From Chloroflexota bacterium (GTDB lineage Bacteria; Chloroflexota; JAJPGV01): 64,000 nucleotides of DNA. A program made the translations under genes and the position numbers. The DNA is taken from NCBI GenBank assembly GCA_021325635.1, contig JAJPGV010000023.1, positions 1 to 64,000 on the forward strand. The letters run 5' to 3'. The notes below the pieces were generated by a model, which ran no database searches, was not told the origin of the DNA, and was given only the letters and a program-made list of their open reading frames with translations. Shown one piece after another: positions 588-21,927 of the stretch (positions are counted from its first letter, which is position 1; the number at the start of each line of letters is the position of its first letter).

Positions 588-1805
588 ATGCCCGCCTTCA
601 CCGACAAATTCATTGCCGAGCTGGAGGAGCAGCACGGGCACTTTCGAGCCATCTTCTCGGCCGATGTCAATTCGCCGCTGGAGGAGCGCCTGGAGGCGCG
701 CATCGCAGCCAGCTGGCATCCGCTGCCTGAAACGTCGCCAGGCGACCGGCCGGCGCCGGCGGTCTTCGCCGTCGACGGGTCCGAGGCCACGCGGAACTTC
801 TCCAACGCTTCCTGGCTGCTGATCTGCCAGGCCCTCATGCTCGGTCCGGAGATCGAGCTGCCCACCCTGCAGCTGAGGCTCGTGCCGGGCAACGTGCCCA
901 GCCAGGTGGTGGACAGCTACTCCAGCCGGCTGATGCGCTGGCTAGAGCTGCGGCTGGCGCTGGACCACCTGGGGCGGGTGGCCGGTCAGACGCTGATCCT
1001 GGACGGCTCGCTGTATTCCACGCTGCCGCACCTGCTGTATCCGCTCGACGCGCTGCAGGGGCAGCCGGGCTGTGCCGACGACGCGGACCTGCCGATTCGC
1101 ATCCTGGAGGCGTACCTGGACCTGTTCGACGCCTGTCGGGCGCAGGACGTCCTGCTGCTGGGTATCTCCAAGACCACCCAGGACCGCGTGCTGACCCACA
1201 CCTTGCTGCATCTGCCAGACGACGTCGATCGTCTGAGCATCGACATGGCGGAGCAGATCGAGCTCGAGGGCGATGCGCGCATTCCGCCGGATGCCGAAGC
1301 GCTCGATCGCTGGACGGGCATGGCGGCGGGCTGCAGCTCGCCTGTCCTGCTGGGCATGTACTCGTTCGGCCGCTTTCGCGAAGTGCTGCTGTCCGAGCCG
1401 GAGCGCATCGTCGACTCCTTTGCCCGCTGCAGCCGGCGCACGCCCGCGCAGCTGGTGCGCATTGTCGATCGGCTGCGGCAGGCCGCGGCCATCGCCACGT
1501 TCCACGTTCGTCTGGCGGACGGCGACGATTGCATCCGGGTGGACCTGCCGGCCTACGCGCTCGGCTGCGCCGACCGCCTGGTAGATTTCTCCTGCGGGCT
1601 CGGCCCAAGCGAGCCGCTCGAGCCCGTCCTGCGCCTGCTGCAGGCTTGCTATGGTGGGCCGAACGTGTATAACGCGCCGCTGTACGCGGTCGATAAACAG
1701 GTGCGCTTGAGCAACGACATGGTGGATGGTCCGTTCTTATCGATCCTGCGCTCCGTCGTCCGTCCCGATATCCGCTACAACCGCTCGGCCAGGAGATTCC
1801 TATGA
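588..1805 (+). CDS. nurA: NurA-family 5'-3' nuclease
   Basis: NurA is an RNase H-like-fold nuclease that works with the HerA translocase to resect DNA double-strand ends. This 405-residue protein shows the family's acidic motifs: AVDGS (Asp63) and a second LDGSL (Asp139), followed by GISK (Lys195) and a late YAVDKQ segment. All are typical of the metal-binding core. It is somewhat longer than the roughly 340-residue archaeal proteins I know. It is first in the cluster, and its stop overlaps the herA start as ATGA, so the two are translationally coupled. The ATG start has no Shine-Dalgarno but lies just below a plausible promoter. Family assignment is firm; activity is inferred. Confidence 0.88.
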   Translation: MPAFTDKFIAELEEQHGHFRAIFSADVNSPLEERLEARIAASWHPLPETSPGDRPAPAVFAVDGSEATRNFSNASWLLICQALMLGPEIELPTLQLRLVPGNVPSQVVDSYSSRLMRWLELRLALDHLGRVAGQTLILDGSLYSTLPHLLYPLDALQGQPGCADDADLPIRILEAYLDLFDACRAQDVLLLGISKTTQDRVLTHTLLHLPDDVDRLSIDMAEQIELEGDARIPPDAEALDRWTGMAAGCSSPVLLGMYSFGRFREVLLSEPERIVDSFARCSRRTPAQLVRIVDRLRQAAAIATFHVRLADGDDCIRVDLPAYALGCADRLVDFSCGLGPSEPLEPVLRLLQACYGGPNVYNAPLYAVDKQVRLSNDMVDGPFLSILRSVVRPDIRYNRSARRFL

Positions 1806-3520
1806 ATGAGCCGCCGAATGAGCCACCTGCAGCCCAGCCGGCCCGAGGCACGAGCCTGAGCCCGGCCGAGCGCGAAGCCCTCGGCAGCCCCATTGGCTAC
1901 ATCGTGGGCGAGACCCACCCCATGGAATTCACCTTCGTCACCGATCAGCAGTCCGTTCCACCGCGGCTGGAGTACATCACCGTGCCGGACGTGCCCGAGC
2001 GCATCAATGGCGAGCTCGTGCCGGTGGAGCTCCTGGCCCAGGTGCACGAGATCGGCATCTCTTCCCCGGTGATCTCCGATCAGCTCAGCTTCGGCGAGAC
2101 CGAAACGCTGCTGCGCAACCGCTACGGCGCGCTGCCCAAGGTGCTGTGCCGGGCCAAGGTGGTGGGCTACCTGGTGGATGGGAAGGTGCATACGTCCCGA
2201 TCGGCGGCGCTGCCCGGCCAGGCGGTGCACGTCGCCAGCGACGGCCTGCTGGAAGCGTTCTTCAGCAACAACGTCAGGGCGGGCATGGAGGTGGGCACGC
2301 TGATCACGCGCGACAGCGTACCGGTGCTGCTGGATCCGAACGGCCTGCGCCGCCATCTGGCGGTGATCGCCCAGACCGGCGCGGGCAAGTCCTACCTGGT
2401 GGGCAAGGTGCTGGAGAGTCTGCTCGACCTGGGCGGCACCATCCTGGTGTTCGATCCCAACTCCGACTACGTGCAGATGCGCAAGGCCCAGGGGGACAAG
2501 GACAAGGCCTACGCCGTCGCCCGCCCGGTTGAGCTGGCCGACCGCATCGACGTGTTCCGCATTCCCGGCCTGCAGGGCCGCCGCTATCCGGACGAGATGG
2601 TGGGCCTGACCGAGGAGTTCACCGTCAAGTTCTCCAGCCTGGAGCCGGACGAGGTGGCTGAGCTGGCCGGGGTGCCCAGCAGCGCCGCCAACATCCGCAA
2701 AGCCATCCAGGATGCCTGCAAGAAGCTGCGCAAGGACGGCAGCGACTACCGTCCGACCGAGCTCAAGGAGCAGCTCAACTGGGCGGCGGCCAACGACCAG
2801 GACCTTGACTGGCGCACCGGCGCCATGCGCGCCGTGAAGTACGTCGAGATTCTCGAGAACTACCCCATCTGGGGCTTCAAGGACGTCGACGTCGACCACC
2901 TCATCAAGCCGCGGCACATGTCCGTCATCGATCTTGCCGGCGCGGACAAGAGCGTCTCAGCCTACGTGGTCGACCGCGCCCTGCGATCCATCTGGGCGCG
3001 AGCCACAACGGGCCAGCTCGTCCATCCGGTGTTCGTAGTGCTGGAGGAAGCGCACAACCTGGTGCCGGCCGATAGGGAGCGCCGCGAGAGCCTATCCTCC
3101 CGCATCATCAACACGGTGGCCAGCGAGGGTCGCAAGTTCAAGGTGTTCCTGGTGGTCATCACCCAGCGGCCGTCGAAGATCCATCAGGACACGCTGTCGC
3201 AATGCGGCAGCCAGCTGATCATGCGGCTGACCAACCCGGACGATCAGATTGCCGTGCAGAAGGCCTCCGAGGCCATCTCCTCGGACCTGCTGCGCGACCT
3301 GCCGGCGCTGGATCAGGGCGAGGCGATCGTGCTTGGCACGCTCACCCGAGTGCCGGCCATGATCAAAGTCGGCCGCCGCCGGTCGGCCGAGGGCGGGTCG
3401 GACGTCGACCTGGTGGAGGCGCTGCGCCAGGCGAGCCAGGACTCGCGGCTGGACAAGGTGTTGGAAGAGTCGATGGCGGTGGTCCGGGGCGCCAGCAAGC
3501 GCCAAGAGGAGGAGTGGTGA
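1802..3520 (+). CDS. herA: HerA-type DNA translocase ATPase
   Basis: HerA is a hexameric FtsK/HerA-superfamily ATPase that pumps DNA into NurA during end processing. The 572-residue protein has an N-terminal beta-rich (HAS-barrel-like) part to about residue 170. Walker A is AQTGAGKS near residues 190-197, and Walker B is FVVLEEAHN with its acidic pair near 414-415. A TQRPSK sensor-like segment follows, then RLTNPDDQ where the arginine finger of the family lies. The start overlaps nurA (ATGA) and the stop overlaps the mre11 start (GTGA). The full domain set and length match bacterial and archaeal HerA. I see no sign of a SIR2 or DUF4297 partner as in HerA defence systems; the partner here is NurA. 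Confidence 0.9.
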   Translation: MNEPPNEPPAAQPARGTSLSPAEREALGSPIGYIVGETHPMEFTFVTDQQSVPPRLEYITVPDVPERINGELVPVELLAQVHEIGISSPVISDQLSFGETETLLRNRYGALPKVLCRAKVVGYLVDGKVHTSRSAALPGQAVHVASDGLLEAFFSNNVRAGMEVGTLITRDSVPVLLDPNGLRRHLAVIAQTGAGKSYLVGKVLESLLDLGGTILVFDPNSDYVQMRKAQGDKDKAYAVARPVELADRIDVFRIPGLQGRRYPDEMVGLTEEFTVKFSSLEPDEVAELAGVPSSAANIRKAIQDACKKLRKDGSDYRPTELKEQLNWAAANDQDLDWRTGAMRAVKYVEILENYPIWGFKDVDVDHLIKPRHMSVIDLAGADKSVSAYVVDRALRSIWARATTGQLVHPVFVVLEEAHNLVPADRERRESLSSRIINTVASEGRKFKVFLVVITQRPSKIHQDTLSQCGSQLIMRLTNPDDQIAVQKASEAISSDLLRDLPALDQGEAIVLGTLTRVPAMIKVGRRRSAEGGSDVDLVEALRQASQDSRLDKVLEESMAVVRGASKRQEEEW

Positions 3521-4731
3521 GCGGCGCAGGGGGCAGGGCTCAGGGGTCAGACCCGGCGGCGCTGCCGCGAAGGCCGGTGCGTGCGGTTGTGACCGCCGAC
3601 AACCACCTGAGCCGCGGGTACGCCAAGATGTCGCCGCAGAAGCTGGACGTGCGACGGCAGTGGCTGCGCAAGGGCTTCCGCCAGGCGGTCGATTTTGCCA
3701 TCGAATCCCAAGCGGACCTGTTCCTGCACGCCGGCGACCTGTTCGACTCGCCGCAGCCGCGGAACGTCGACCGGGCGTTCGTCGCCCATGAGCTGCGCCG
3801 GCTGGCCGCGGCCGGGATTCACAGCTTCGGGATCGCCGGCACGCACGACTCGCCCAAGATGATGACGGTCGAGGGCGGGACCACGCCCCAGAAGATCTAC
3901 GAGCAGTTCGAAGCCATGCGCATGTTCAACGACTTCGACGATCCCTCTCCGGTGGTCGTCGACGTCGCCGGCACGACGGTCGCCGTGGGCGGCGTGAGCT
4001 TCAATCCGGTGCTCATGGCGGCCGACGATCCGCTGGCCGGCATCGACTTTCCGCGCCGGGCCGACGTCGGCATCATGCTGGTGCACTACAGCGTCGAGGG
4101 CGCCTGCTACGACGAGTCCAACGAGCCGGTCATCTCCAAGGCCAGCATCGCCGCCCTGGCCGGCGTGGACCTGCTGGTGGCCGGGCACTACCACGAGTTT
4201 CGGCAGTTCGGGATAGGTCCGGTCAAGGTGATCGTGCCCGGGGCCACCGAGCGCATGATCTACGGCGCCGAGCGCGATGCCAGCTTTGCCTACGTGGAGC
4301 TGCTGCCGGGAAAGGCCGACCGCGTCCAGAAGGTGGAGGTCGACGCCCAGGACTACCGGCCGGTGATCGTCCGGACGACCGAGCTCGATCAGGCAGAGCC
4401 GTTCGAGTCGGCCTGCCGCCGCCTGGAGACGGCGCTCACCTCCGGGGCGGTGGTCAAGGTCAAGCTGGAAGGGCCGCTGTCGCGGGAGATGTACCGCGGG
4501 CTGCGCATCCGCGACCTGCTGCAGTTCGGCAACAATCATGCCTTCCACATGGAGATCGACGCCAGCGGGCTGATGCTGGTCGATGAGCGGCTGGACAGCG
4601 CCGGCAAGGGCATCCGGCTGTCGCAGAAGGAAGAGATCGGCCTGGTGGCCTGCGAGCTCATGGGCCAGGAGCCCGAGCGAAAAGAGGTCCTCGAGAAAGC
4701 GATGAAGGAGCTGCTGCTTGCCTACGACTGA
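3517..4731 (+). CDS. Mre11/SbcD-type DNA exonuclease
   Basis: This is a calcineurin-like metallophosphoesterase of 404 residues that pairs with the downstream Rad50-like ATPase. The phosphoesterase motifs appear in order: DNH (28-30), GDLFD (Asp74), GTHD (108-111), VHYS (His190) and GHYH (224-226). The usual GNHD motif reads GTHD, so the metal-bridging Asn is Thr. After about residue 270 comes a capping region. I chose the GTG at 3517 because it overlaps the herA stop as GTGA; the conserved domain begins about 20 residues later, so GTG 3577 is a possible alternative. It could equally be called YhaO-like. Loss of the Asn could weaken nuclease activity. Confidence 0.87.
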   Translation: MSGAGGRAQGSDPAALPRRPVRAVVTADNHLSRGYAKMSPQKLDVRRQWLRKGFRQAVDFAIESQADLFLHAGDLFDSPQPRNVDRAFVAHELRRLAAAGIHSFGIAGTHDSPKMMTVEGGTTPQKIYEQFEAMRMFNDFDDPSPVVVDVAGTTVAVGGVSFNPVLMAADDPLAGIDFPRRADVGIMLVHYSVEGACYDESNEPVISKASIAALAGVDLLVAGHYHEFRQFGIGPVKVIVPGATERMIYGAERDASFAYVELLPGKADRVQKVEVDAQDYRPVIVRTTELDQAEPFESACRRLETALTSGAVVKVKLEGPLSREMYRGLRIRDLLQFGNNHAFHMEIDASGLMLVDERLDSAGKGIRLSQKEEIGLVACELMGQEPERKEVLEKAMKELLLAYD

Positions 4732-4761
4732 GCCGGCCGCCGTGAGGAGGGCCGGCGAGCG

Positions 4762-7700
4762 GTGATCAAGCTCATCTCTCTGCGGGCCGCGAAGTTCAAG
4801 CAGCTCGACGACGTGCAGCTGGCCTTTCCGGAGCGCGGCAGCGTGCTGGTGCAGGGCGCGAATGAGGCCGGCAAGTCGACGCTGTTCGAAAGCGTGTTCT
4901 TCGCCCTGTTCGGCAAGGCGCTGGTAACCGAGGACAATGCCGGCAAGCTCGACGATCTCATCCACTACGAATCGCCCCGCGCGGTCGTGCGCCTGGCCTT
5001 CTCCACGGATAGGGCAACCTTTCAGGTGAGCCGCTCGCTGAATCGCGGCAAGGCCAACAACGCGGTGCTGGAGATCCGGTACGCGGGCGGCAAGAGCGAG
5101 ACCGTGACCAACCTCAGCGCTGTCAATCGCCGCATCGTCGAGGAGCTGGGGCTGGACGGCGAGGCGCTGTTGAACTCCTGCTTCGTGGAGCAGAAGAAGC
5201 TGGAGAAGCTGGAGTCGATGAACGCGCAGCAGCGCCGTGAGACGCTCCTGCGGCTCCTCAACCTCGATCGGCTCAGCGCCCTGGAGGGGCAGTACAAGCC
5301 GGCGTCGTCGGACGAGTACGAGCTGCAGCGCCAGCGGGATCGGCTGCGCCTGGCCGAGGTCCAGCGCGACCTGCCGGCAACCGGCCAGCGCATCGAGGTG
5401 GTGGATCGCGAGCTTCGGCTCATCCACGGCGCCAGGCTGCGGGCCCAGGTCGAGGAGCTCGATCGAGGCGTGGCGGCCGAGCAGCGAGACCAGGAGGCCC
5501 TGCGCGAGCAGGAGAGCGGGCTGAGCGCAGCGCTGGCCGAGGTGGAGGGCCTGAAGCAGGTTCGTGACCTGGCGCGAGTGGCCGGCGAGACGCTGGTAGG
5601 CATCCGCCAGGAAGAAGACGAGCTGACTCGCCTGGACAGCGAGATCCAGGCCCTGCGCCAGGATGCGGCGCGCTGCCCCGAGCTGCAGAGGAAGCTGTCG
5701 TCGCTGGAAGCGCAGGCTGAGGAGATGGCCGGGATAGCCGCGGCCGAACAGCGCCTGGTGGAGGAGCGCCACCGACTGGAACGTCTGGACAGCGCGGTGA
5801 CACGCGCGGCCGAGCTGCGGCAGACGCTGGCCGAGCGCCGGCAGACGCTGGCGGCCATTGAGACGCAGCTGGCCGATGCCCGGCAGGACGTAGAGCAGGC
5901 GGACCGTATTGAGCGTCAGGGCCGTCTGGCCGAGCTGTTGCGCAGCTGGCTGCAGATCCGCGAGGTGGCCCACATCGCGGCCGAGGGCCAGGCGCGGCTG
6001 GAGGCTCTGCAGAGCGAGGCGTCGGATCTCGACGCGAACGCGGCAGCGCATGCCCTCGCGCATACCAGCAGCCAGCGGACAGCCATTGGCTTGACGGCGG
6101 CGACCTTGGTGGCGCTGGTGGGCGGCATCCTGGCGCTGGCGACCGGACTCGCGGTTGGAGCTGCCGGGCTCGTGATCGCCCTGATCGGGGCGGCTCTGAG
6201 CTTGCGCTGCTGGCGTCTGGCCGAAACACAGCAGCAGCGGCGGCGATCGGCCGAAGCGTCGGCCGCGGCCGTACGTATGGAGGTCCACCGCCGCGAGGGC
6301 GAGCAGGCCCTGGCCCAGCGCACCGGCCAAGATCCGGCTCGGTTGGGCCAGATCGAAAGCGAGCTGGCAGCGCTTGGTGCCGCTGTCCCGGCGACGGTGG
6401 AGGATGCTCACGCCGCTCTCGACAGGCTTGGCCTGGGCGCTGCCCCGGCCGATGGCGCGCCGAACGGCAGCGGCGGAACGCGATCCGCCAGCGAAGCACG
6501 CCACCTGGCCGGGACGCTCGAGGGCCAGCGCGACAGCGTTCGGGCCGAGATCGGCAAGCTCGAGCAGCAGCTCGAGCGCGAAGGTGACGTGGCGGCCGAA
6601 GCCGAGCTGGTACGCGCCGAGATCGAGCGCGCCGCGCGTGATGCGGCCGAGCGCCGGGCCGCCGTGGGCAGTCAATTCGCGGACGCTGGTGACGTGCGAG
6701 CCCAGGCTGCCGCTGTGCGGGCGGCACTGGACATGGCGACGGACGCGTCTCGAAAGGCCGAGGGCCTGGCTGCCGCGGCCGCCGAGCGGCACCACGCTTT
6801 GACCGCGCGCCGGGCGGAGTTCGCTCGCAGCTGGGAGGAGCTGGCCGGCCTGCGCCCCGACGTCGGCCAGGACGTCGACGCCTGCCGCCAGCTGTGGCGT
6901 GAGTGCAGCGATCAGCTGGCGCTGAAGGACGAGCCTGGCCTACGGCGCGAAGCCATTGGCGTCAGCCAGCAGCTTGCCGGTAGTCAGGAACGAGCGAGAG
7001 CAGCGGGGCAGCGCATCGCCCTGATCCAGGCGGAGCTGGCCGAGCTGGCGCTGGACGAAGCGCAGCTGCAGGCCCATGCCGCGCCCACAGCCGAGGACGA
7101 GCACAGCTTGCGCTCCGAGAAAGACGAGCTGCTGGGTCGGCAGCGCTCGCTGCGCGACCAGCAGGCGGAGCTGGAGCGACAGCTGAGTCTGCAGGGTGTG
7201 GAGCTGGACTACGCCGAAGCCGTCGAAGCGCTTGCTGCCTTCGAGGAGCGCCTGGAGGTCCGCAGGCAGGCTTACCGCATCGTAACCCTGGCCCGGCGCA
7301 ACATCGTCGGCAAGGTGCTGCCGAGCACCGAACGTAACATGGGCCTGTTGCTGCCGTTGCTGACCAATGACCGCTATCGCGACGTAGTCGTCGATCCGGA
7401 AACCTACAAGATCAAAGTCTGGGATGAGCTGGCGCGCGGCATGAAGGCCAAGGACATCTTTTCCGGAGGCACCCGCGATCAGTTCTCGCTGGCGCTGCGG
7501 CTGGCTTTCGCGCTGGCCACGCTGCCGGAAGAGCTGGGCACCGCCCCGGGCTTCATCTTCCTGGACGAGCCGTTGAGCTCATTCGATCACGCTCGGGCAG
7601 AAGCGCTGGTCAACCTGCTGACTCGCGGCCTGATCGCCTCCAACTTCGAGCAGATCTTCGTCATCTCGCACAGCCGCTCGTTCGACGAGCAGCAGTTCGA

Positions 7701-7845
7701 CTTTCACCTGCAGCTGGAGAGCGGCCGCGTCGCGGCGAGCGACCTGCCGGCGCTGCCGTCTGAGGCCGGCGAAGGCCGCCAGATCGGCCTGGCGCTCGAC
7801 GCTGCGCCCGTCACGGCAGCCGCCGCAGCCGGCGCCGGACGGTGA
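4762..7845 (+). CDS. Rad50/SbcE (YhaN)-type SMC-like ATPase with apical membrane hairpin
   Basis: This is the ABC-type ATPase partner of the Mre11 nuclease (1027 residues). Walker A is GANEAGKS (32-39), the signature is SGGTRDQ (901-907), Walker B is FIFLDEP (Asp935-Glu936), and the switch His is in VISHS (His970). Two long Glu/Gln/Arg-rich coiled coils fill the middle. No CxxC zinc hook exists; the nearest candidate is a lone CPEL near residue 310. Instead residues about 440-482 form two adjacent hydrophobic helices rich in Ala, Leu, Gly and Val, placed at the expected coiled-coil apex. The SGGTRDQ form is typical of the YhaN/SbcE branch as I remember it. The start is GTG 4762, with AGGAGG at 4745-4750, 30 nt after mre11. 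Confidence 0.88.
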   Translation: MIKLISLRAAKFKQLDDVQLAFPERGSVLVQGANEAGKSTLFESVFFALFGKALVTEDNAGKLDDLIHYESPRAVVRLAFSTDRATFQVSRSLNRGKANNAVLEIRYAGGKSETVTNLSAVNRRIVEELGLDGEALLNSCFVEQKKLEKLESMNAQQRRETLLRLLNLDRLSALEGQYKPASSDEYELQRQRDRLRLAEVQRDLPATGQRIEVVDRELRLIHGARLRAQVEELDRGVAAEQRDQEALREQESGLSAALAEVEGLKQVRDLARVAGETLVGIRQEEDELTRLDSEIQALRQDAARCPELQRKLSSLEAQAEEMAGIAAAEQRLVEERHRLERLDSAVTRAAELRQTLAERRQTLAAIETQLADARQDVEQADRIERQGRLAELLRSWLQIREVAHIAAEGQARLEALQSEASDLDANAAAHALAHTSSQRTAIGLTAATLVALVGGILALATGLAVGAAGLVIALIGAALSLRCWRLAETQQQRRRSAEASAAAVRMEVHRREGEQALAQRTGQDPARLGQIESELAALGAAVPATVEDAHAALDRLGLGAAPADGAPNGSGGTRSASEARHLAGTLEGQRDSVRAEIGKLEQQLEREGDVAAEAELVRAEIERAARDAAERRAAVGSQFADAGDVRAQAAAVRAALDMATDASRKAEGLAAAAAERHHALTARRAEFARSWEELAGLRPDVGQDVDACRQLWRECSDQLALKDEPGLRREAIGVSQQLAGSQERARAAGQRIALIQAELAELALDEAQLQAHAAPTAEDEHSLRSEKDELLGRQRSLRDQQAELERQLSLQGVELDYAEAVEALAAFEERLEVRRQAYRIVTLARRNIVGKVLPSTERNMGLLLPLLTNDRYRDVVVDPETYKIKVWDELARGMKAKDIFSGGTRDQFSLALRLAFALATLPEELGTAPGFIFLDEPLSSFDHARAEALVNLLTRGLIASNFEQIFVISHSRSFDEQQFDFHLQLESGRVAASDLPALPSEAGEGRQIGLALDAAPVTAAAAAGAGR

Positions 7846-8273
7846 TTCGCACGCCGGCCGACGGCTCGGAGGCGACCGGCCTGGGCTCGGGCTCACTCGA
7901 GCCGCACGCCGTCGTTACCTGGGCGCGACTGTTCAGCGGAGGCTTGGCTGCCGCCTCGGGACTGGCGCTGACCGGGCTGGTCCTGCTGCGCGATCCTGGT
8001 CCGGAGGAGCAGCGGCTGTTCGTCGTCCTGGCCATGATCTGCGGCATGGCGCTGAGCACCGCCGGCCAGCTCGCGCTGCTGGGCGCGGTCGAGGCACCCA
8101 TTGGGACGGTGCTTCGGGCGTTCAGGCGCGCCGTGCTGATCGGTCTGGCCTGCGCCGGCGCAATCGTGCTCCAGCTCAACTCCGCCTTCACCCTGCCGAA
8201 CCTGGCGTTCATGCTGCTGGTGCTGCTGATTGTGGAGATGATCTTCCTGGCCCGGCGCCAGGATGCATCCTAG
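7842..8273 (+). CDS. Small four-helix membrane protein coupled to the Rad50-like gene
   Basis: I do not recognise this 143-residue protein. After about 25 polar residues it has four predicted membrane helices, including GLALTGLVLL, FVVLAMICGMAL, AVLIGLACAGAIVL and FMLLVLLIVEMIFL, and it ends in ARRQDAS. The GTG start overlaps the Rad50-like stop as GTGA, so it is translated as the fifth member of the resection cluster. Because its partner also carries a membrane hairpin, it may help anchor or shield that complex. That role is inference from position only. Confidence 0.7.
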   Translation: MIRTPADGSEATGLGSGSLEPHAVVTWARLFSGGLAAASGLALTGLVLLRDPGPEEQRLFVVLAMICGMALSTAGQLALLGAVEAPIGTVLRAFRRAVLIGLACAGAIVLQLNSAFTLPNLAFMLLVLLIVEMIFLARRQDAS

Positions 8274-13596: not shown

Positions 13597-14538
13597 GTGG
13601 TGGGCTTCCTGGCGCTTGGCCTGTACGGCGATTTGTCGAAGGTCGGCGGCGCCCTGTTGCATTTCCGCTGGGTCCTGCTGCCGGCCATTCTCGGCCTGAC
13701 GCTGGCAAACTACGGCATTCGCTTCCTGAAGTGGCACTACTACATGGGGCAGCTGGGAGTGGACATCGGCTGGCGCGACAGCCTGGCGGTGTTCCTCGGC
13801 GGGCTGGCGATGGTGGTGACGCCGGGCAAGGTGGGCGAATTCTTCAAGGCTTACCTGGTGCGCCGGGTGGCCGGCACGCCGGTGGCCCGCACCATGCCTG
13901 TCGTGGTATGCGAACGGCTGACGGACGGCGTGGCGATGATCGGCCTGTCGTCGGCCGGGCTGGTGCTGTTCGGCTACGGCTGGCAGGCGATTGCCGCCGT
14001 AGCCGCGCTGGCCGTCGCGCTGATCGTGGCGGTGCAGTACCGGCCGCTGGCGCTGGCCCTGCTGTCCCTGGGCGAGCGCGTGCCCTTCCTTGCCGGCCGG
14101 ATGCACCACCTGCACGAGTTCTACGATGCCGCGTACCGCCTGCTGCGGTTCCGCAACCTGGCCCTGGCCGTGGGCATGGGCCTGGTCTCATGGGCGGGCG
14201 AATGCATCGCCTTCTACCTGGTTCTCACCGGCTTGGGATTGAGCGGAGATCGGCTGCTGACGGCATCGTTCTTCGTGCTGGCCGTCTCCACGCTGCTGGG
14301 GTCGCTGTCGCTGCTGCCGGGCGGCCTGGGCGTGGCCGATGGCAGCATCACCGGGCTGCTGCTGGCGGTGGCTGTGGTCGGGCGGGACGAGGCGGTCGCC
14401 GCCACGCTGCTGATCCGCTTCTGCACGCTGTGGTTCGGGGTCAGCCTGGGCCTGGCGACGCTGGCCGTCTGCCGCTCGCGCTTGGGCCTTGGCAAAGGGC
14501 TCGCGCCGTCGCTTACCGCTTCGGCGCCCGCTTCCTGA
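13597..14538 (+). CDS. Lysylphosphatidylglycerol synthase TM-region / flippase-like membrane protein
   Basis: This polytopic protein of the YbhN/UPF0104 (LPG_synthase_TM) family has about eight helices. The family hallmark VTPGKVGEFFKAYLVRR is present, with PVVVCERLTDG after it and LLPGGLGVADGSITGLL near the C-terminus. These proteins are thought to move lipid-linked compounds. The first ATG/GTG/TTG in frame is GTG 13597, yet the open frame upstream (from 13507) encodes RYRLRRSLLLCAAGA, which looks like the missing basic cap and first half of helix 1. CTG 13561 or CTG 13528 may be the true start. Confidence 0.83.
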   Translation: MVGFLALGLYGDLSKVGGALLHFRWVLLPAILGLTLANYGIRFLKWHYYMGQLGVDIGWRDSLAVFLGGLAMVVTPGKVGEFFKAYLVRRVAGTPVARTMPVVVCERLTDGVAMIGLSSAGLVLFGYGWQAIAAVAALAVALIVAVQYRPLALALLSLGERVPFLAGRMHHLHEFYDAAYRLLRFRNLALAVGMGLVSWAGECIAFYLVLTGLGLSGDRLLTASFFVLAVSTLLGSLSLLPGGLGVADGSITGLLLAVAVVGRDEAVAATLLIRFCTLWFGVSLGLATLAVCRSRLGLGKGLAPSLTASAPAS

Positions 14539-14565
14539 AGAAGCCCGCTGCGCTAGCCTGTCAAC

Positions 14566-14571
14566 TACAAT
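14566..14571 (+). promoter_or_regulatory. -10 hexamer just upstream of tlyA
   Basis: TACAAT overlaps the first possible ATG (14570) and ends 10 nt before the second ATG (14582). This favours initiation at 14582 from a very short or absent leader. No clear -35 was seen. Confidence 0.3.
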
Positions 14572-15373
14572 GGCCGCGAGGATGCGATTGGATGTCCTGC
14601 TTGTCGAGCGCGGCCTGGCGCCGTCTCGAGAGCGCGCACAGGCACTGATCCTCGAGGGCGCGGTTCGGGTGGCCGGCGAGACTTCCGCGCGGGCCGGAGC
14701 GGCAGTAGCCGTCGACGCTTCCATCGAAGTGGCCGAAGACCGCCAGCCTTTCGTTTCTCGCGGAGGGCTGAAGCTGCGCCGGGCCCTGGACGCGTTTCAC
14801 ATCGACGTGGGCGGCCGGATCTGCCTGGACGTGGGATCGAGCACCGGCGGCTTCAGCGACTGTTTGCTGCAGGCGGGCGCGGCCCGCGTCTACGCCATCG
14901 ACGTCGGGCGCGGCCAGCTGGATTGGAAGCTGCGGCAAGATCCCAGGGTCGTGGTGATGGAGAAGACCAATATCCGCTATCTAACCGCGCTTCCCGAGCG
15001 GCCGGAGCTCGCCGCCGTCGACGTGTCGTTCATCTCCTTGAGCAAGGTGCTGGAGCCCGTCACCGGGCTGCTGCTGGGCAGCGAGCAGGTCGGCGAGGGC
15101 GCTGGCTGGCCGCAAATGGTGGCGCTGGTCAAGCCGCAGTTCGAGGCGGGGCCGAAGGGCGCGCCGAAAGGCGTGGTGCGCGACCCGGAGGTCCACAAGC
15201 GGGTGCTGCTGGCGGCCACCGGCCATGCCCGCGAGCTCGGCTGGGCAGCGCGCGGGCTGGTCGAGTCGCCAATCACCGGACCGGCGGGCAACCGTGAGTT
15301 CCTGCTGTGGCTGGCGCGAACCGGCGAGGACGTCGTGGACGCGGAGGCGGTGGCGCGATGCGTGGCCGGGTGA
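14570..15373 (+). CDS. tlyA: TlyA-family rRNA 2'-O-methyltransferase
   Basis: TlyA methylates ribose 2'-O positions of 16S and 23S rRNA (C1409/C1920 in mycobacteria). The 267 residues start with an S4 RNA-binding domain (RLDVLLVERGLAPSRERAQ) and continue with an FtsJ-like Rossmann domain, with CLDVGSSTGGFSDCLLQ as the SAM site. Lys, Asp and Glu positions in GGLKLRRAL, AIDVG and KPQFEAG fit the catalytic set. ATG 14570 and ATG 14582 are both possible. The last 16 bases overlap nadK. The tlyA-nadK-recN order is common in bacteria. Confidence 0.88.
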   Translation: MAARMRLDVLLVERGLAPSRERAQALILEGAVRVAGETSARAGAAVAVDASIEVAEDRQPFVSRGGLKLRRALDAFHIDVGGRICLDVGSSTGGFSDCLLQAGAARVYAIDVGRGQLDWKLRQDPRVVVMEKTNIRYLTALPERPELAAVDVSFISLSKVLEPVTGLLLGSEQVGEGAGWPQMVALVKPQFEAGPKGAPKGVVRDPEVHKRVLLAATGHARELGWAARGLVESPITGPAGNREFLLWLARTGEDVVDAEAVARCVAG

Positions 15374-16206
15374 AGACGGTCTCGGTCCTCTACAACCCGG
15401 CCGTTCCCGGCGCCGAGGAGCTGTCGCTGGCGATCGACGCCATGATGGCCGAGCGCGGTCTGACCGTCAGCAGGTGTCCAATCGAGCGCCGCACCGAGTC
15501 GAAGCCGTGCATCGATGGGGCGGAGCTGATCGTAACCCTGGGGGGCGACGGCACGCTGCTGCGGGCGGCGCACTTCGCCGCCGAGCCGGGCATTCCGATC
15601 CTTGGGGTCAATCTCGGCAAGCTTGGCTTCCTGTGCGACATCGGGCCGGACAACGTGCTCGCTCGGATGCCGGCCTACCTCGACGGACAGAGCGAGATCG
15701 AAGAGCGGCTGATGCTGGAGGCGACGCACCTGCGAGGCGGCCGTCCCATCTCCTGCGGCCACGGGCTCAACGACGTGGTGCTCGGGCATGCGTCCATTTC
15801 CAACATCATCCGGGTCAACGCTTCCATCAACGGCAACACCTTGACCGCGTTCGCGGGCGATGGGGTTATCGTGGCAACGCCGTCGGGATCGACAGGCTAC
15901 TCGTTTGCCGCGGGCGGTCCCATCGTCCATCCCGCCGACCAGCACCTGCTGCTGACGCCTATCAATCCGCACAAGCCCCGTTTCGGGTCCGTCGTCGTCC
16001 CACCGCAGTCGGTCATCAGCCTGGAGCTGGATACGGATAGGCCGGCCGTGATGAGCGTCGACGGCGAACCGGCGACGCCGGTCGAGAGCGGCGACGTGAT
16101 CGAAGTTCGGGAGAGCCCCTACCGCACACGACTGCTGCGGCGGGATTCGGAACGGTACTTCTTCGAAGCGCTGCGGCGGACGCTGAAGTATGGCCTGGAG
16201 CCGTGA
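15358..16206 (+). CDS. nadK: NAD kinase
   Basis: This ATP-NAD kinase makes NADP+. In 282 residues it shows VTLGGDGTLLRA (GGDG), NLGKLGFL, LNDVVL (the Asn-Asp/Glu pair), and TPSGSTGYSFAAGGP, all diagnostic. ATG 15358 lies inside the end of tlyA, so the genes are coupled; GTG 15370 is a possible alternative start. Confidence 0.92.
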   Translation: MRGRVKTVSVLYNPAVPGAEELSLAIDAMMAERGLTVSRCPIERRTESKPCIDGAELIVTLGGDGTLLRAAHFAAEPGIPILGVNLGKLGFLCDIGPDNVLARMPAYLDGQSEIEERLMLEATHLRGGRPISCGHGLNDVVLGHASISNIIRVNASINGNTLTAFAGDGVIVATPSGSTGYSFAAGGPIVHPADQHLLLTPINPHKPRFGSVVVPPQSVISLELDTDRPAVMSVDGEPATPVESGDVIEVRESPYRTRLLRRDSERYFFEALRRTLKYGLEP

Positions 16207-16237
16207 CGAAGAGGGCCGCCAGGGGTCGTAAGCCCGC

Positions 16238-17962
16238 GTGAGCGCTGCTTCGAGCTCGGCCGCGGGGTCATCCGCGCCGCCGGCGGCCGTTACCTCGCCG
16301 CCGCCGGGATCGCTGATCGAGCTGCGCATCAAAGACTTCGCCATCATCGACGAGCTGTCGCTGTCACTGGAGCCTGGCCTGAACGCGCTGACCGGTGAGA
16401 CGGGCGCAGGCAAGTCGATCCTCATCGATGCGCTGGGAGCGGTCCTCGGCGAGCGCACCGGGCCTAACGTGGTGCGCGCCGGCGCCCAGCGCGCGCTGGT
16501 CGAGGCCACGTTCGTCCGCCCGGTCGATCTCCCGGACGAGCTGGAGCTGGACGGCGAGGATGACGTCATCATCCTGAGCCGCGAGATTGGGAGCAACGGT
16601 CGGGGTGGGGCGCGCCTGAACGGCCGCACGGTGCCGGTCTCCCTGCTGCAGGTCGCCGGCAGGGCGCTGGTCGACGTCCACGGACAGAGCGATCATCAGT
16701 CGCTTTTCCGGCCGGTCGGCCATATGCGGCTGCTCGATCGCTTCGGCGGGCTGGAGGGGCAGCGCCAGCAGGTCGCCGCCGCGGTTCAGCAGCTGCGTCA
16801 GGTGGGCCAGCAGCTCGAGGCCCTGCGCGGCGCGGCCAGAGACCGTGCGCGCCAACAGGACCTGCTGCGCTTCCAGGCGGACGAGATCGAGGCCGCTCAG
16901 CTTACACCGGGCGAGGACGAAGATCTGGCCCACCGCCGGCTGCTGCTGGCCAGCGCGGAGAAGATTCGCGAGGCCGTTTCGGAAGCGCTGGCCCGGCTGA
17001 ACGACGACGGCCAGGCGATGGATGCCGTCCAGGCGGCGGCCAAGCAGCTGTCGGACGCCATTCGGCTCGACCCGGCGCTGGAGCAGCCGGCCCAGGAGCT
17101 CGAGCTGGCGCTGACCGGCCTGCAGGATGCGGGCAGGTCACTGGCTCGCTACCTGGACGCGGTCGAAGCCGATCCGGCTGAGCTGCAGCGGATCGACGAT
17201 CGCCTGGAGCTCATTCGTGGGCTCAAGCGCAAGTACGGCGATAGCCTCGACGAGGTGCTGGCCTTCGGCCGCGATGCCGCGCTGCAGCTGGCCGAGATCG
17301 AAGGCGCCGACGCTCGGATCGAGGAGCTGGACGTCCAAGCGCAGCGGCTGCTGGAGGAGGCCAACGTCCTGGCCGCGGCGCTTTCCGAGGCTCGTCAGGA
17401 TGCTGCCGAGCGGCTGGCTTCGCAGGTCGGCGTGGAGCTGGCCGAACTGAGCATGAAGGGCGCCCAGTTCGCGGCCAGCGTGAGGCGGCGGGAGGGCCCG
17501 GACGCCCTCCAGCCCGGAGGCCTCGACGAGGTGGAGTTCCTGTTGTCGGCCAACCGAGGTGAGCCGCTGCGCCCTCTGGCTCAGGTGGCTAGCGGCGGCG
17601 AAGCGTCGAGGGTCATGCTGGCCCTGAAGTCGGTGTTCTCGGCGGCCGATCAGACACCCGTGCTGGTGTTCGACGAGATCGAGGTTGGGGTAGGCGCGCG
17701 CAGCGGTCACGTCATCGGCGACAAGCTGCGCCATCTCGCCGCCGGCCACCAGGTGCTGTGCATCACCCACCTGGCGCCGGTGGCCGCCAGGGCCAACGCC
17801 CATTTCAAGGTCACCAAGGGCACCGACGGTGAACGCACAGGCACGCTGGTGCTGCGGATCGAGGGCGAGGCGCGCGTCCGGGAGATGGCGGAGATGCTGG
17901 CCGGCCATCCTATCAGCGAAGCGGCGATCGAGAGCGCGAGACAGCTGCTGGCAGCCTGCTGA
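16238..17962 (+). CDS. recN: DNA repair protein RecN
   Basis: RecN is an SMC-like ATPase recruited to double-strand breaks. The 574-residue protein opens with a Ser/Ala/Pro-rich stretch of about 24 residues. Then come the RIKDFAIIDEL strand and Walker A TGETGAGKSIL, the DVHGQSDHQSL segment typical of RecN, a central coiled coil, the signature ASGGEASRVMLALK and Walker B VLVFDEIEVGVG. A His switch follows in CITHLAPVA. The GTG start at 16238 may be too early, since the conserved domain begins near residue 25. It is the third member of the tlyA-nadK-recN block. Confidence 0.92.
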   Translation: MSAASSSAAGSSAPPAAVTSPPPGSLIELRIKDFAIIDELSLSLEPGLNALTGETGAGKSILIDALGAVLGERTGPNVVRAGAQRALVEATFVRPVDLPDELELDGEDDVIILSREIGSNGRGGARLNGRTVPVSLLQVAGRALVDVHGQSDHQSLFRPVGHMRLLDRFGGLEGQRQQVAAAVQQLRQVGQQLEALRGAARDRARQQDLLRFQADEIEAAQLTPGEDEDLAHRRLLLASAEKIREAVSEALARLNDDGQAMDAVQAAAKQLSDAIRLDPALEQPAQELELALTGLQDAGRSLARYLDAVEADPAELQRIDDRLELIRGLKRKYGDSLDEVLAFGRDAALQLAEIEGADARIEELDVQAQRLLEEANVLAAALSEARQDAAERLASQVGVELAELSMKGAQFAASVRRREGPDALQPGGLDEVEFLLSANRGEPLRPLAQVASGGEASRVMLALKSVFSAADQTPVLVFDEIEVGVGARSGHVIGDKLRHLAAGHQVLCITHLAPVAARANAHFKVTKGTDGERTGTLVLRIEGEARVREMAEMLAGHPISEAAIESARQLLAAC

Positions 17963-17969
17963 CGTCCGC

Positions 17970-17996
17970 TTGTCCGGGGCAGCCGGATTCTATAAT
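17970..17996 (+). promoter_or_regulatory. recJ promoter, probably giving a leaderless mRNA
   Basis: A perfect TATAAT (17991-17996) is followed by exactly 7 nt and then the recJ ATG at 18004, the spacing expected if transcription starts at the A of the start codon. TTGTCC at 17970-17975 is a weak -35 with a 15-nt spacer. No Shine-Dalgarno precedes the ATG. Confidence 0.55.
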
Positions 17997-18003
17997 CGCG
18001 CCA

Positions 18004-19758
18004 ATGGCACTAGCCTCGGCTGAGCTTCAGCACAAGCCGAAGCGCTGGGTGCTGGCCGGGCTGCCCCCGCTCGAGCTGCAGCAGACTCTGCCGGAGGTCC
18101 ATCCGCTCAAGCTGCGCCTGCTGTATAACCGCGGCTTGACCGATCCGGAGACCATTCGCCGCCACCACGAGCTGAGCTTCGACGACCTGCACGATCCGCT
18201 GCTCATGCCGGCCATGGAGCGGGCGGTCGAGCGCCTGTCGCGGGCGGTTCGCGGCGGTGAGCTGATCGTCATCTATGGGGACTTCGACGCCGACGGCGTC
18301 ACCGGCTCGGCCATCCTCGAACGGGCGTTGGGCGCCGTGGGGGCGCGCACCCGGAGCTACATCCCCAAGCGCCTGGAGGAGGGCTACGGCCTGCACGCGG
18401 CGGCCATCGAGCTGCTGGCTGCCGAGGGCGCCAAGATCATCATCACCATCGATTGCGGCATCACCTCGGCAGCCGAGGTGCGGCGCGCCCGCGAGCTGGG
18501 CGTGGACACGATCGTATGCGACCACCACAAGCTGCCTGAGCTATTGCCGGAGGCGCTGGCGCTGCTACACCCGGGCATGGGCGGGTATCCGTTTCCGCAG
18601 CTGTGCGCGGCGGGTGTGTGCTTCAAGCTGGCGCAAGCCCTGCTGGCGGCGCATGGCCTGCCCATCGATCCGCAGGATCTGACCGACTACGCCGCCGTGG
18701 GAACGCTGGCCGACATGGTGCCTCTGAGCGGCGAGAACAGGGTGCTGGTCCGGCACGGATTGGACAAGCTGCGGCGCCGGCCCAGCCTGGGCCTGGCAGC
18801 GATGATGGAGCTGGCGGGCATCGAGCGCCAGCGCTTGACCTGCAGCGACGTGAGCTTCACCCTGGCGCCGCACATCAACGCTTCCGGCCGGCTGGACGAC
18901 GCCGGCCTGGCCTTCCAGCTGATGGTCACGGCCGACGAGAGCAGCGCGGCCGAGCTCGCGGCGCGCCTGCGCCTGCTGAACGAGGAGCGCCAGCGCCTGA
19001 CGCAGGAGGTGCTGGCGGCGGCGCGCGAGCAGGTGAGGGCCGCGGACCCGGACCAACTGGCCTATGTCGTGGGCGGGGAAGGCTGGCCGCCGGGGGTGGT
19101 CGGTCTGGTGGCCGGCAAGCTGGTCGAGGACACCGGCCGGCCCGCCTTCGTGGCCGAGCTGGGGCCGGACGTCTGTCGGGGCTCTGCTCGCGGAGTGGCC
19201 GGGTTTGACCTGGTGGAAGCGATGACGGCCTGCAGCCAGCTGCTGCTGCGCTTCGGCGGGCATCCGCGAGCCGCGGGCTTTACACTCGCCCGCTCAGCTT
19301 TCCCGGAGTTCAGCGAAGCAATCGTGCGGGCGGCAAACGCTAAACTGACGGGACAGGATCTGGAACCGATTATCTCAATCGATTCCGAATTGAAAATGCG
19401 ACATCTGAATTGGGACATTCATCGAGTCATCCAAGAGGTGGGACCATTCGGCGTCGGCAACCCTACGCCCACCTTCTTGATCCGCGGCGTGCGGGTGCTC
19501 GATGCCCGCTGTACGCCCCGCGATCACCTGCGGATGAAATTCAAGAGCGATGACGGCCAAACCATCGACGCCTTCGGGTTCGGGCTCGGGCACTGCTCCC
19601 GGTGGCTGGCCGAGCGCTCGTACGTGGACCTGGTCTTCGAGATGAGCAGCAGCCAGTTCAAGGGCTACGAAGCGCTGGAGCTGCGCGTGCGCGACCTGCG
19701 TGAGGCGGTACCGGCGGCCCCTGCCAACGATTCGGCCCCCGTCGCTCGGACGTCCTAG
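18004..19758 (+). CDS. recJ: Single-stranded-DNA exonuclease RecJ
   Basis: This is a 5'-3' ssDNA exonuclease of the DHH phosphoesterase superfamily (584 residues). Its motifs are YGDFDADGVTGSAI, IDCGITSAAE, VCDHHKLPE (the DHH motif) and the DHHA1 part HINASGRLDDAG. A further GGHPRAAGFTL segment and a C-terminal OB-like domain follow. The stop is directly followed by the rel start. In recombination and repair it could cooperate with the NurA/HerA/Mre11/Rad50 group upstream and with RecN. Confidence 0.92.
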   Translation: MALASAELQHKPKRWVLAGLPPLELQQTLPEVHPLKLRLLYNRGLTDPETIRRHHELSFDDLHDPLLMPAMERAVERLSRAVRGGELIVIYGDFDADGVTGSAILERALGAVGARTRSYIPKRLEEGYGLHAAAIELLAAEGAKIIITIDCGITSAAEVRRARELGVDTIVCDHHKLPELLPEALALLHPGMGGYPFPQLCAAGVCFKLAQALLAAHGLPIDPQDLTDYAAVGTLADMVPLSGENRVLVRHGLDKLRRRPSLGLAAMMELAGIERQRLTCSDVSFTLAPHINASGRLDDAGLAFQLMVTADESSAAELAARLRLLNEERQRLTQEVLAAAREQVRAADPDQLAYVVGGEGWPPGVVGLVAGKLVEDTGRPAFVAELGPDVCRGSARGVAGFDLVEAMTACSQLLLRFGGHPRAAGFTLARSAFPEFSEAIVRAANAKLTGQDLEPIISIDSELKMRHLNWDIHRVIQEVGPFGVGNPTPTFLIRGVRVLDARCTPRDHLRMKFKSDDGQTIDAFGFGLGHCSRWLAERSYVDLVFEMSSSQFKGYEALELRVRDLREAVPAAPANDSAPVARTS

Positions 19759-21927
19759 ATGGCTGTCGCGGCCCCGACTCCGATCCCCGAGCTGGCCGAG
19801 AAGGTTCGCAAGTACTACTCGGAAGCGGACGTGGCCGTCCTGGAACGGGCCTACGAGTTCGCCGTGCGAGCTCATGGCTCGCAGGTGCGCGCCTCCGGTG
19901 AGCCTTACGTCCAGCACCCGTACGCCGCCGCCTGCATCCTGGCCGACATGCAGCTCGATCTGCCCAGCCTGTGCGCCGCGCTGCTGCACGACGTGCCCGA
20001 AGACACCGAGATCACGCTCGACGAGATCGAGCATGAGTTCGGCCCCGAGGTGGCCAAGCTGGTCGACGGCGTCACCAAGCTGAGCCGTATCAGCTGGGAC
20101 ACGCTGGAGGAGAAGCAGGCTGAGAACCTGCGCAAGATGTTCCTGGCCATGGCGGAGGACGCCCGCGTGGTGCTGATCAAGCTGGCCGACCGGCTGCACA
20201 ACATGCGCACACTGTCGGTGCTGCCCGACGGCAAGCGCCGCAAGATCTCACAGGAGACGCTGGACATCTTCGCGCCGCTGGCGCACCGGCTGGGCATCTG
20301 GGAGATCAAGTGGGAGCTGGAGGACCTGGCGTTCCGCTACCTGGAGCCGGAGCGCTACCGGGAGATCGTGGCGCTCCTGGCGGCCCGCCGGGGAGAGCGA
20401 GAGGCCTACATCGCCCGCGCTGTGGAGGCGCTCAAGACCGAGCTGGAGCGGGTGCAGATCCACGCCGACGTGAAGGGCCGTCCCAAGCACATCTACAGCA
20501 TCGCCAAGAAGCTGGAAGGTCAGGGCAGCGTCGACTTCAGCCGCATCTACGACCTGCAGGCCGTTCGCGTGCTGGTAGACGAGGTCAAGGACTGCTACGG
20601 AGCCATCGGCGTGATCCACGCGCTGTGGAAGCCGATACCGGGGCGGTTCAAGGACTACATCGCCATGCCCAAGCCGAACGGCTACCAGTCGCTGCACACG
20701 ACGGTGTTCTGCTTCGACGGCCAGCCCCTCGAAGTCCAGGTTCGCACCTTCGAGATGCACCGCGTGGCCGAGATCGGCGTTGCCGCGCACTGGCATTACA
20801 AGGAAGGCAGCGCGACCGATCCCGACTTCGACTCCAAGGTCGCCATGCTGCGTCAGATCCTGGATTGGCAGCGGGAGGTGTCGGCCAAGGAGTTCGTCGA
20901 GTCGGTCAAGATCGACCTGTTCCAGGACCAGATCTTCGTCTTCACCCCCAAGGGCGCGGTCAAGACGCTGCCGGCCAAGTCCACGCCGGTGGATTTCGCC
21001 TACCGTATCCACACCGACATCGGCAACCGCTGCGTGGGGGCCAAGGTGAACAACCGTATGGTGTCCCTGGACTACCAGCTGCGCAACGGCAACATCGTCG
21101 AGATCCTGACCAGCAAGGCGGCCAAGGGCCCGAGCCGCGACTGGCTGGACATCGTCCGCACGCCCGGCGCCCGCGAGAAGATCCGCCAATGGTTCAAGCG
21201 CCAGCAGCGCGACGAGAACATCGCCCGCGGGAAGGAGCTGCTGGACAAGGAGCTGCGCCGGCTGGCTGGGCAGAGCCTGGCCGCTGTGGGCGACCGCCTA
21301 CCCGGCATCGCCGAGGCGCTCCACTACAAGAGCGTCGAGGAGCTGTTCGACGGCCTGGGCTACGGCGCGCTGACCTCTGCCCACGTCATTACCAAGCTTG
21401 GCTTCCGCGAGGAGCAGCCTCACGTGGTGGTGCCCACCGAAGACGCGGCGGTCAAACAGCCGGCCTCGACCTCGGCCATCACGGTGCGGGGCGTAGGCGA
21501 CCTGCTGACGCGCCTGGCCAACTGCTGCAAGCCTGTGCCGGGTGACGCCATCATCGGCTTCATTACCCGAGGTCGCGGCATCACCGTGCATCGCAAGGAT
21601 TGCTTCAGCGTGCGGAACGAAGATGAGGTCGAGCGGCTGGTCAAAGTCGAGTGGGCGCAGACCAAGAAGGATCTCTATCCGGTCCGCATCCGCGTCGAAG
21701 CCTGGGATCGTGAAGGTCTGCTGCGCGATATGGCCACGGTCATCGCCGAGGAGAAGGTCTCCCTCGTGGCCGCCAGCGCCACGGCCCATCCGGACCAGAC
21801 CGCGACGCTGACCGCGACGATCAACATCAGCGACCTGGATCAGCTGAGCCGGCTGTTCACCAAGCTGGAGAAGATCAAGGACGTTTTCTCGGCCGAGCGC
21901 GACAGCTCCACGCTAGCCGCGAGCTGA
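19759..21927 (+). CDS. Bifunctional (p)ppGpp synthetase/hydrolase (Rel)
   Basis: This is the long RelA/SpoT homologue (722 residues) of the stringent response. The HD hydrolase domain shows VQHPYA, LLHDVPED and LADRLHN. The synthetase domain has the bifunctional-type RxKD motif in GRFKDYIAMPKPNGYQS rather than the RelA-type ExDD. A TGS domain (IFVFTPKGAVKTL) and a C-terminal ACT domain follow, with a conserved-cysteine region (LANCCKPVPGD) between. The ATG directly abuts the recJ TAG. Both synthesis and hydrolysis are expected because the HD residues are intact. Confidence 0.93.
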   Translation: MAVAAPTPIPELAEKVRKYYSEADVAVLERAYEFAVRAHGSQVRASGEPYVQHPYAAACILADMQLDLPSLCAALLHDVPEDTEITLDEIEHEFGPEVAKLVDGVTKLSRISWDTLEEKQAENLRKMFLAMAEDARVVLIKLADRLHNMRTLSVLPDGKRRKISQETLDIFAPLAHRLGIWEIKWELEDLAFRYLEPERYREIVALLAARRGEREAYIARAVEALKTELERVQIHADVKGRPKHIYSIAKKLEGQGSVDFSRIYDLQAVRVLVDEVKDCYGAIGVIHALWKPIPGRFKDYIAMPKPNGYQSLHTTVFCFDGQPLEVQVRTFEMHRVAEIGVAAHWHYKEGSATDPDFDSKVAMLRQILDWQREVSAKEFVESVKIDLFQDQIFVFTPKGAVKTLPAKSTPVDFAYRIHTDIGNRCVGAKVNNRMVSLDYQLRNGNIVEILTSKAAKGPSRDWLDIVRTPGAREKIRQWFKRQQRDENIARGKELLDKELRRLAGQSLAAVGDRLPGIAEALHYKSVEELFDGLGYGALTSAHVITKLGFREEQPHVVVPTEDAAVKQPASTSAITVRGVGDLLTRLANCCKPVPGDAIIGFITRGRGITVHRKDCFSVRNEDEVERLVKVEWAQTKKDLYPVRIRVEAWDREGLLRDMATVIAEEKVSLVAASATAHPDQTATLTATINISDLDQLSRLFTKLEKIKDVFSAERDSSTLAAS

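Follow-up and report, generated by a model that had tools for sequence, protein, structure and literature searches.

In archaea such as Sulfolobus, Pyrococcus and Thermococcus, Mre11, Rad50, HerA and NurA are encoded together in an mre11-rad50-herA-nurA operon. The coiled coil of canonical Rad50 ends in a zinc hook (CxxC) that joins two molecules, and models of Mre11-Rad50 treat this coiled-coil tip as central to DNA-end bridging and allostery. Among bacteria, the NurA-HerA pair of Deinococcus has been investigated (PMC9960219). The occurrence of archaeal resection genes in bacteria is not new in itself, and the cluster reported here, which we call type B, is a variant in which Rad50 carries a hydrophobic hairpin in mid-coil. 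In the searchable open-licence literature we found no description of a cluster with such a Rad50, and nothing relevant on Rad50 proteins with transmembrane (TM) segments, on the function of YhaN/YhaO or on NurA-HerA in Chloroflexi or Dictyoglomus.

The cluster lies in a 64,000-nt stretch of DNA from a Chloroflexota bacterium (the whole of which we refer to as the window), at the beginning of contig C25, in a genome of 4.64 Mb in 63 contigs that is 96% complete. ORFs and profile matches revealed that the overlapping four-gene end-resection cluster of archaeal type claimed by an earlier sequence-only reading is real (588-7845): nurA, herA, mre11 and rad50 are joined in one operon-like cluster, the arrangement by which an archaeal-type resection cluster is defined, and the junctions proposed in that reading were recovered when the letters were read again (ATGA for nurA/herA, followed by GTGA, a 30-nt gap and GTGA for the 4-nt overlap of rad50 and gene 5). 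The order nurA-herA-mre11-rad50 is not due to chance, because the same order recurs in other phyla. The nuclease and ATPase motifs of the cluster are intact, the single exception being an Mre11 ligand (GNHD to GTHD).

Table 1. Positions of the type-B cluster genes, the Rad50 hairpin and gene 5 in the window.
Feature	Position	Strand	Description
nurA	588-1805	+	ATG start; 405 aa; RNase H-fold 5'-3' nuclease; PF09376 46.6 bits (cutoff 21)
herA	1802-3520	+	572 aa; hexameric FtsK/HerA-type DNA-translocating ATPase; PF01935 114.7 bits; NCBIfam HerA 1.6e-55
mre11	3517-4731	+	GTG start; 404 aa; Mn-dependent phosphodiesterase; PF00149; NCBIfam Mre11_Sulfo 4.7e-18
rad50 (type B)	4762-7845	+	GTG start; 1027 aa; ABC/SMC-type ATPase with long coiled coil; PF13476 53.5 bits; NCBIfam Rad50 1.6e-31
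Rad50 residues 440-481	6079-6204	+	predicted membrane hairpin of two helices, capping the tip of the long helices at the zinc-hook position
gene 5	7842-8273	+	143-aa 4-TM protein; four hydrophobic segments; nothing in Pfam scored above cutoff

NurA combines the PF09376 domain with the catalytic acidic residues: D63, E120, D139 and D319 are kept in all type-B relatives and align with those of solved archaeal NurA (the first three with both 3tai and 2ygk, the last, as RVD319, with 2ygk). HerA possesses the Walker A motif and the ATPase core that mark a HerA translocase, and its profile matched a chain of a solved HerA-nuclease complex (9x1l, 7.9e-70) as well as 4d2i. Mre11 retains DxH, GD, H190 and GHxH, the third of its five phosphodiesterase motifs being GTHD in place of the GNHD/E usual in Mre11 (residues 108-111, window positions 3838-3849). 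GTHD is also found in five of seven relatives, the other two having GNHD, and the Mre11 proteins of soluble relatives retain GNHD/E. In Mre11 proteins that have been characterised, the Asn of GNHD binds metal as a ligand, so the activity of the GTHD form may differ from that of GNHD forms. Since homologous Mre11 proteins begin at the equivalent of GTG 3577, the start at GTG 3517 may be wrong and GTG 3577 may be the true one; GTG 3517 itself is preceded by a good AGGAGG. Finally, Rad50 displays the split ABC ATPase head of Rad50/SbcC proteins with all motifs (Walker A GANEAGKS, signature FSGGTRDQ, Walker B FIFLDEP and the H-loop), a long coiled coil, and a match to solved Rad50 heads (5f3w, 1.8e-31).

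The zinc hook CxxC was absent from all eight type-B Rad50s examined and a hydrophobic hairpin, flanked on both sides by basic or polar residues, took its place; these eight were recovered from three phylum-level groups including Caldisericota (the Dictyoglomota and 'archaeon' contigs end before rad50, and their Rad50 is not among the eight). CxxC is also missing from several soluble type-A Rad50s and present in two, so that the hook is not strictly defining. First, the longest run free of D/E/K/R/H/N/Q measures 42 residues in the window Rad50 (approximately 440-481) and 19-45 residues across the eight type-B proteins, compared to 9-12 residues in eight soluble type-A controls, and shuffled sequences reached the type-B run length in 0-0.3%. 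Second, the KD19 maximum was 2.4-2.6 in type B versus 1.1-1.3 in six type-A controls. Third, an AlphaFold model built from the eight sequences placed a turn (461-465), inside the hydrophobic stretch, between two long helices (305-460, 156 residues, and 466-522), with modest confidence (pLDDT 71, pTM 0.42, and roughly 59-72 around the hairpin). A fold search of the PDB with the Rad50 model returned SMC/Rad50 matches, for which global superposition is meaningless owing to the long coils.

Our preferred explanation, which we consider moderately likely, is a complex that resects DNA double-strand ends while held in the inner membrane by Rad50, the anchor being a prediction. The ATPase heads of Rad50 dimers, jointly with Mre11, would bind a DNA end, which Mre11 would open or clip; the HerA hexamer would then pump the duplex into the NurA dimer, and NurA would degrade the 5' strand, leaving a 3' single strand for RecA. 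We infer this resection chemistry from the characterised NurA-HerA and Mre11-Rad50 proteins. At the place of the zinc hook, the two-helix hairpin of Rad50 is predicted to insert into the inner membrane, such that the coiled-coil arm would serve as a tether from the membrane to the DNA end. The purpose of anchoring is speculative; tethering might keep ends, or sister ends, at membrane-associated sites of replication or segregation. Counted against a resection machine is that deletions of NurA-HerA in Deinococcus and Thermus had a modest effect or even improved damage resistance (PMC9960219). The sequence-only reading had noted membrane segments in two of the five proteins, correctly so (the carriers are Rad50 and gene 5), and had suggested a membrane-tethered machine, an idea that stays tenable for Rad50, with the hairpin as its predicted anchor, but not for gene 5.

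Alternatively, the resection machine could be soluble, with the hairpin staying outside the membrane and serving, as a hydrophobic hook in place of zinc, in the dimerisation or cohesion of Rad50 molecules. The hairpin does sit at the coil tip as the zinc hook does, and zinc seems dispensable in so far as some type-A Rad50s lack CxxC too. Moreover, the hairpin of the window Rad50 is rich in Ala and Gly, and on the octanol scale its segments are only weakly favourable (-3.0 and -2.7), no better than some control head-domain helices, and therefore the membrane reading rests mostly on conservation across relatives. A hydrophobic hook is nevertheless unlikely: the length of the hairpin suits two membrane-spanning helices, the long uncharged runs and basic flanks are kept in every type-B Rad50 recovered, the hairpin is strongly hydrophobic in the AT-rich members, and a comparable central hairpin appears in two YhaN-like relatives of Rad50 that adjoin Mre11-like genes.

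The sequence-only reading had taken archaeal-type resection genes to be rare in bacteria, a view at odds with the sampled genomes of the same phylum, as NurA occurs in 236 of 400 (59%) and eight loci that we read (L124-L131) hold soluble clusters with mre11, rad50, a NurA-sized ORF at the place of NurA, and herA. These are type A, and the window cluster is a second, patchy, multi-phylum kind distinct from it. A scan of a genome collection with the window HerA uncovered six close relatives at 45-53% identity (two Caldisericota, two Dictyoglomota, MAG-56 and one bin labelled archaeon). When genomes were searched with a HerA profile, with membership of the clade in the same phylum set at E<1e-80, type-B HerA was detected in 12 of the 400 same-phylum genomes, and the same search gave 5/201 genomes in the phylum of MAG-56, 2/54 in that of the Caldisericota genome and 2/23 in that of the bin labelled archaeon. 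The full four-gene cluster is present in three of the 400, namely the window and two genomes of family f17. In the remaining same-phylum genomes HerA of this clade is mostly alone, one having an adjoining Mre11-like gene and two lying on short contigs. At the same-phylum loci L082-L089 (families f52, f75 and f47), HerA of this clade mostly had no NurA or Rad50 detectable nearby, and an Mre11-like gene was present in L084 only.

The gene order is nurA-herA-mre11-rad50 throughout type B, Caldisericota excepted, where nurA lies approximately 4 kb downstream of rad50. A histone-deacetylase-family gene (PF00850) is placed between herA and mre11 in Caldisericota and overlaps both (L033:11683-12591). 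In the HerA tree the window groups with the two same-phylum clusters and with lone HerAs (100/99 for nine, 94/89 for three), and the Rad50 head tree gives the window the same neighbours (83/92) while placing type-B, type-A and YhaN-like proteins in three separate groups.

Known defences include HerA-nuclease and SMC-nuclease systems, and the sequence-only reading had offered an anti-phage or anti-plasmid system as one option, in which a membrane-anchored complex would degrade linear DNA entering the cell. Weak PADLOC matches for HerA and Rad50 and the patchy distribution (three full clusters in 400 same-phylum genomes) are in keeping with a defence role. The PADLOC matches, however, reflect superfamilies, and NurA and Mre11 had none; we saw no defence genes flanking the examined clusters, whose neighbours are housekeeping genes, and the flanks are syntenic among the related genomes L037, L121 and L122. 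The HerA and Rad50 trees agree, and the cluster holds the only NurA and the only Rad50 of the window's genome. Neither a SIR2/DUF4297 effector nor a defence island accompanied HerA, which scored far short of the NCBIfam HerA_antiphage cutoffs (120 of 850 bits). On the basis of the housekeeping context, the synteny of related genomes and the agreement of the two trees, we favour repair and regard a defence system as quite improbable. Nor is an origin from mobile elements indicated, as the search of phages and plasmids for HerA returned distant superfamily members only (22-31% identity among the best matches listed).

Gene 5 is probably not part of the resection machine; instead of encoding a subunit, it probably neighbours the sugar-kinase/adenylyltransferase genes downstream. 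Following rad50 are opposite-strand genes in L037, L080, L081, L121 and L122, and in two Caldisericota a same-strand membrane gene of the Lit family, which was rejected as the counterpart of gene 5 because the two are not homologous. A search of viral contigs with gene 5 gave no match. Thus, of the five-gene order for which the sequence-only reading had suggested a search, the first four genes recur in other phyla and the fifth is absent; that reading had itself named a lack of conservation of the fifth gene as grounds for abandoning it as a component, and this is what we found. A five-protein membrane complex with the 143-aa protein at its core, as the GTGA overlap with rad50 and the four hydrophobic segments might suggest, is most improbable given that no other type-B cluster examined encodes a homologue, that the Lit-family protein after rad50 is unrelated, and that the pfkB-type sugar kinase gene, beginning 8 nt after gene 5, is nearly as close to it as rad50.

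None of RecBCD, AddAB and AdnAB was seen in the window's genome (96% complete) by a PF12705 search that detected the E. coli, B. subtilis and actinobacterial enzymes as controls, in line with the absence of recBCD/addAB that the sequence-only reading had raised. Only two proteins of this genome matched PF12705, a stand-alone nuclease of 404 aa and a Cas4-like protein adjoining Cas1. The former, a RecB-like PD-(D/E)XK nuclease (L091:681-1895, near the start of contig C17 of G000), has genes for a DNA cytosine methylase and a UvrD-type helicase nearby; the latter belongs to a CRISPR-Cas locus that further comprises a Cas3-like helicase, Cas1 and a repeat array (L092, contig C15 of G000, 93000-105465). 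Other resection routes exist in the genome, since RecJ is present (18112-19695), with RecN just before it and both 8-12 kb from the cluster. A tlyA-type methyltransferase, NAD kinase, RecN, RecJ and RelA/SpoT are encoded one after another on one strand (14414-21924, 6-14 kb downstream), and the adjacency of recN and recJ brings further break-repair genes into the neighbourhood of the cluster. Type B need not replace AddAB and is not strictly its substitute, because two same-phylum type-B genomes also have long AddA/AddB-like ORFs.

Returning to resection anchored via Rad50, we see an even chance that type B is an overlooked break machine of several phyla, in which a membrane hairpin replaces the hook and Mre11-Rad50 retains ends at the inner membrane before passing them on to HerA-NurA. 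If so, resection would take place tethered to the membrane, which would stand in for the hook, and type B would point to membrane-tethered break repair in bacteria. A lineage in which the heads, Mre11 and HerA-NurA are retained but a membrane hairpin has taken over from the hook would make the role of the hook directly testable.

Compared to the archaeal operon, the window cluster contains the same four families, clustered and co-oriented with conserved catalytic residues, and among solved structures its HerA and Rad50 most resemble, in sequence, those from archaea. It departs from that operon in its gene order, in the GTHD of Mre11, and in a Rad50 with FSGGTRDQ and NEAGKS motifs and a predicted membrane hairpin for the zinc hook. 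The soluble type-A cluster of the same phylum also has Mre11, Rad50, a NurA-sized ORF and HerA close together. By contrast, its order is mre11-rad50-nurA-herA, its Rad50 has an SGGEQ signature, an NG[AS]GK[ST] Walker A motif and no membrane segment, and its HerA belongs to a different clade. YhaN-like ATPases (PF13514) resemble type B in their Mre11-like partner, NEAGKS Walker A motif and G(T/S)R[DE]Q signature, and in the mid-coil hydrophobic hairpin of two of the three examined in the same phylum (L137:5263-8412 and L136:4796-7762, both beside Mre11-like genes). Because these two share the central hydrophobic stretch, membrane-anchored Rad50-like proteins may extend beyond type B. Unlike type B, YhaN-like proteins form a separate clade in the head tree, and neither HerA nor NurA was recognised in the stretches examined. 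An identification of the window Rad50 as YhaN (AAA_27) was rejected: it scored 25.9 bits with PF13514 versus 230 for a clear member, matched AAA_23 better and fell into a separate clade. Lastly, Deinococcus shares with the window a bacterial NurA and HerA in a genome with RecJ and without RecBCD/AddAB, whereas the window has Mre11 and Rad50 in the same cluster and the hairpin on Rad50.
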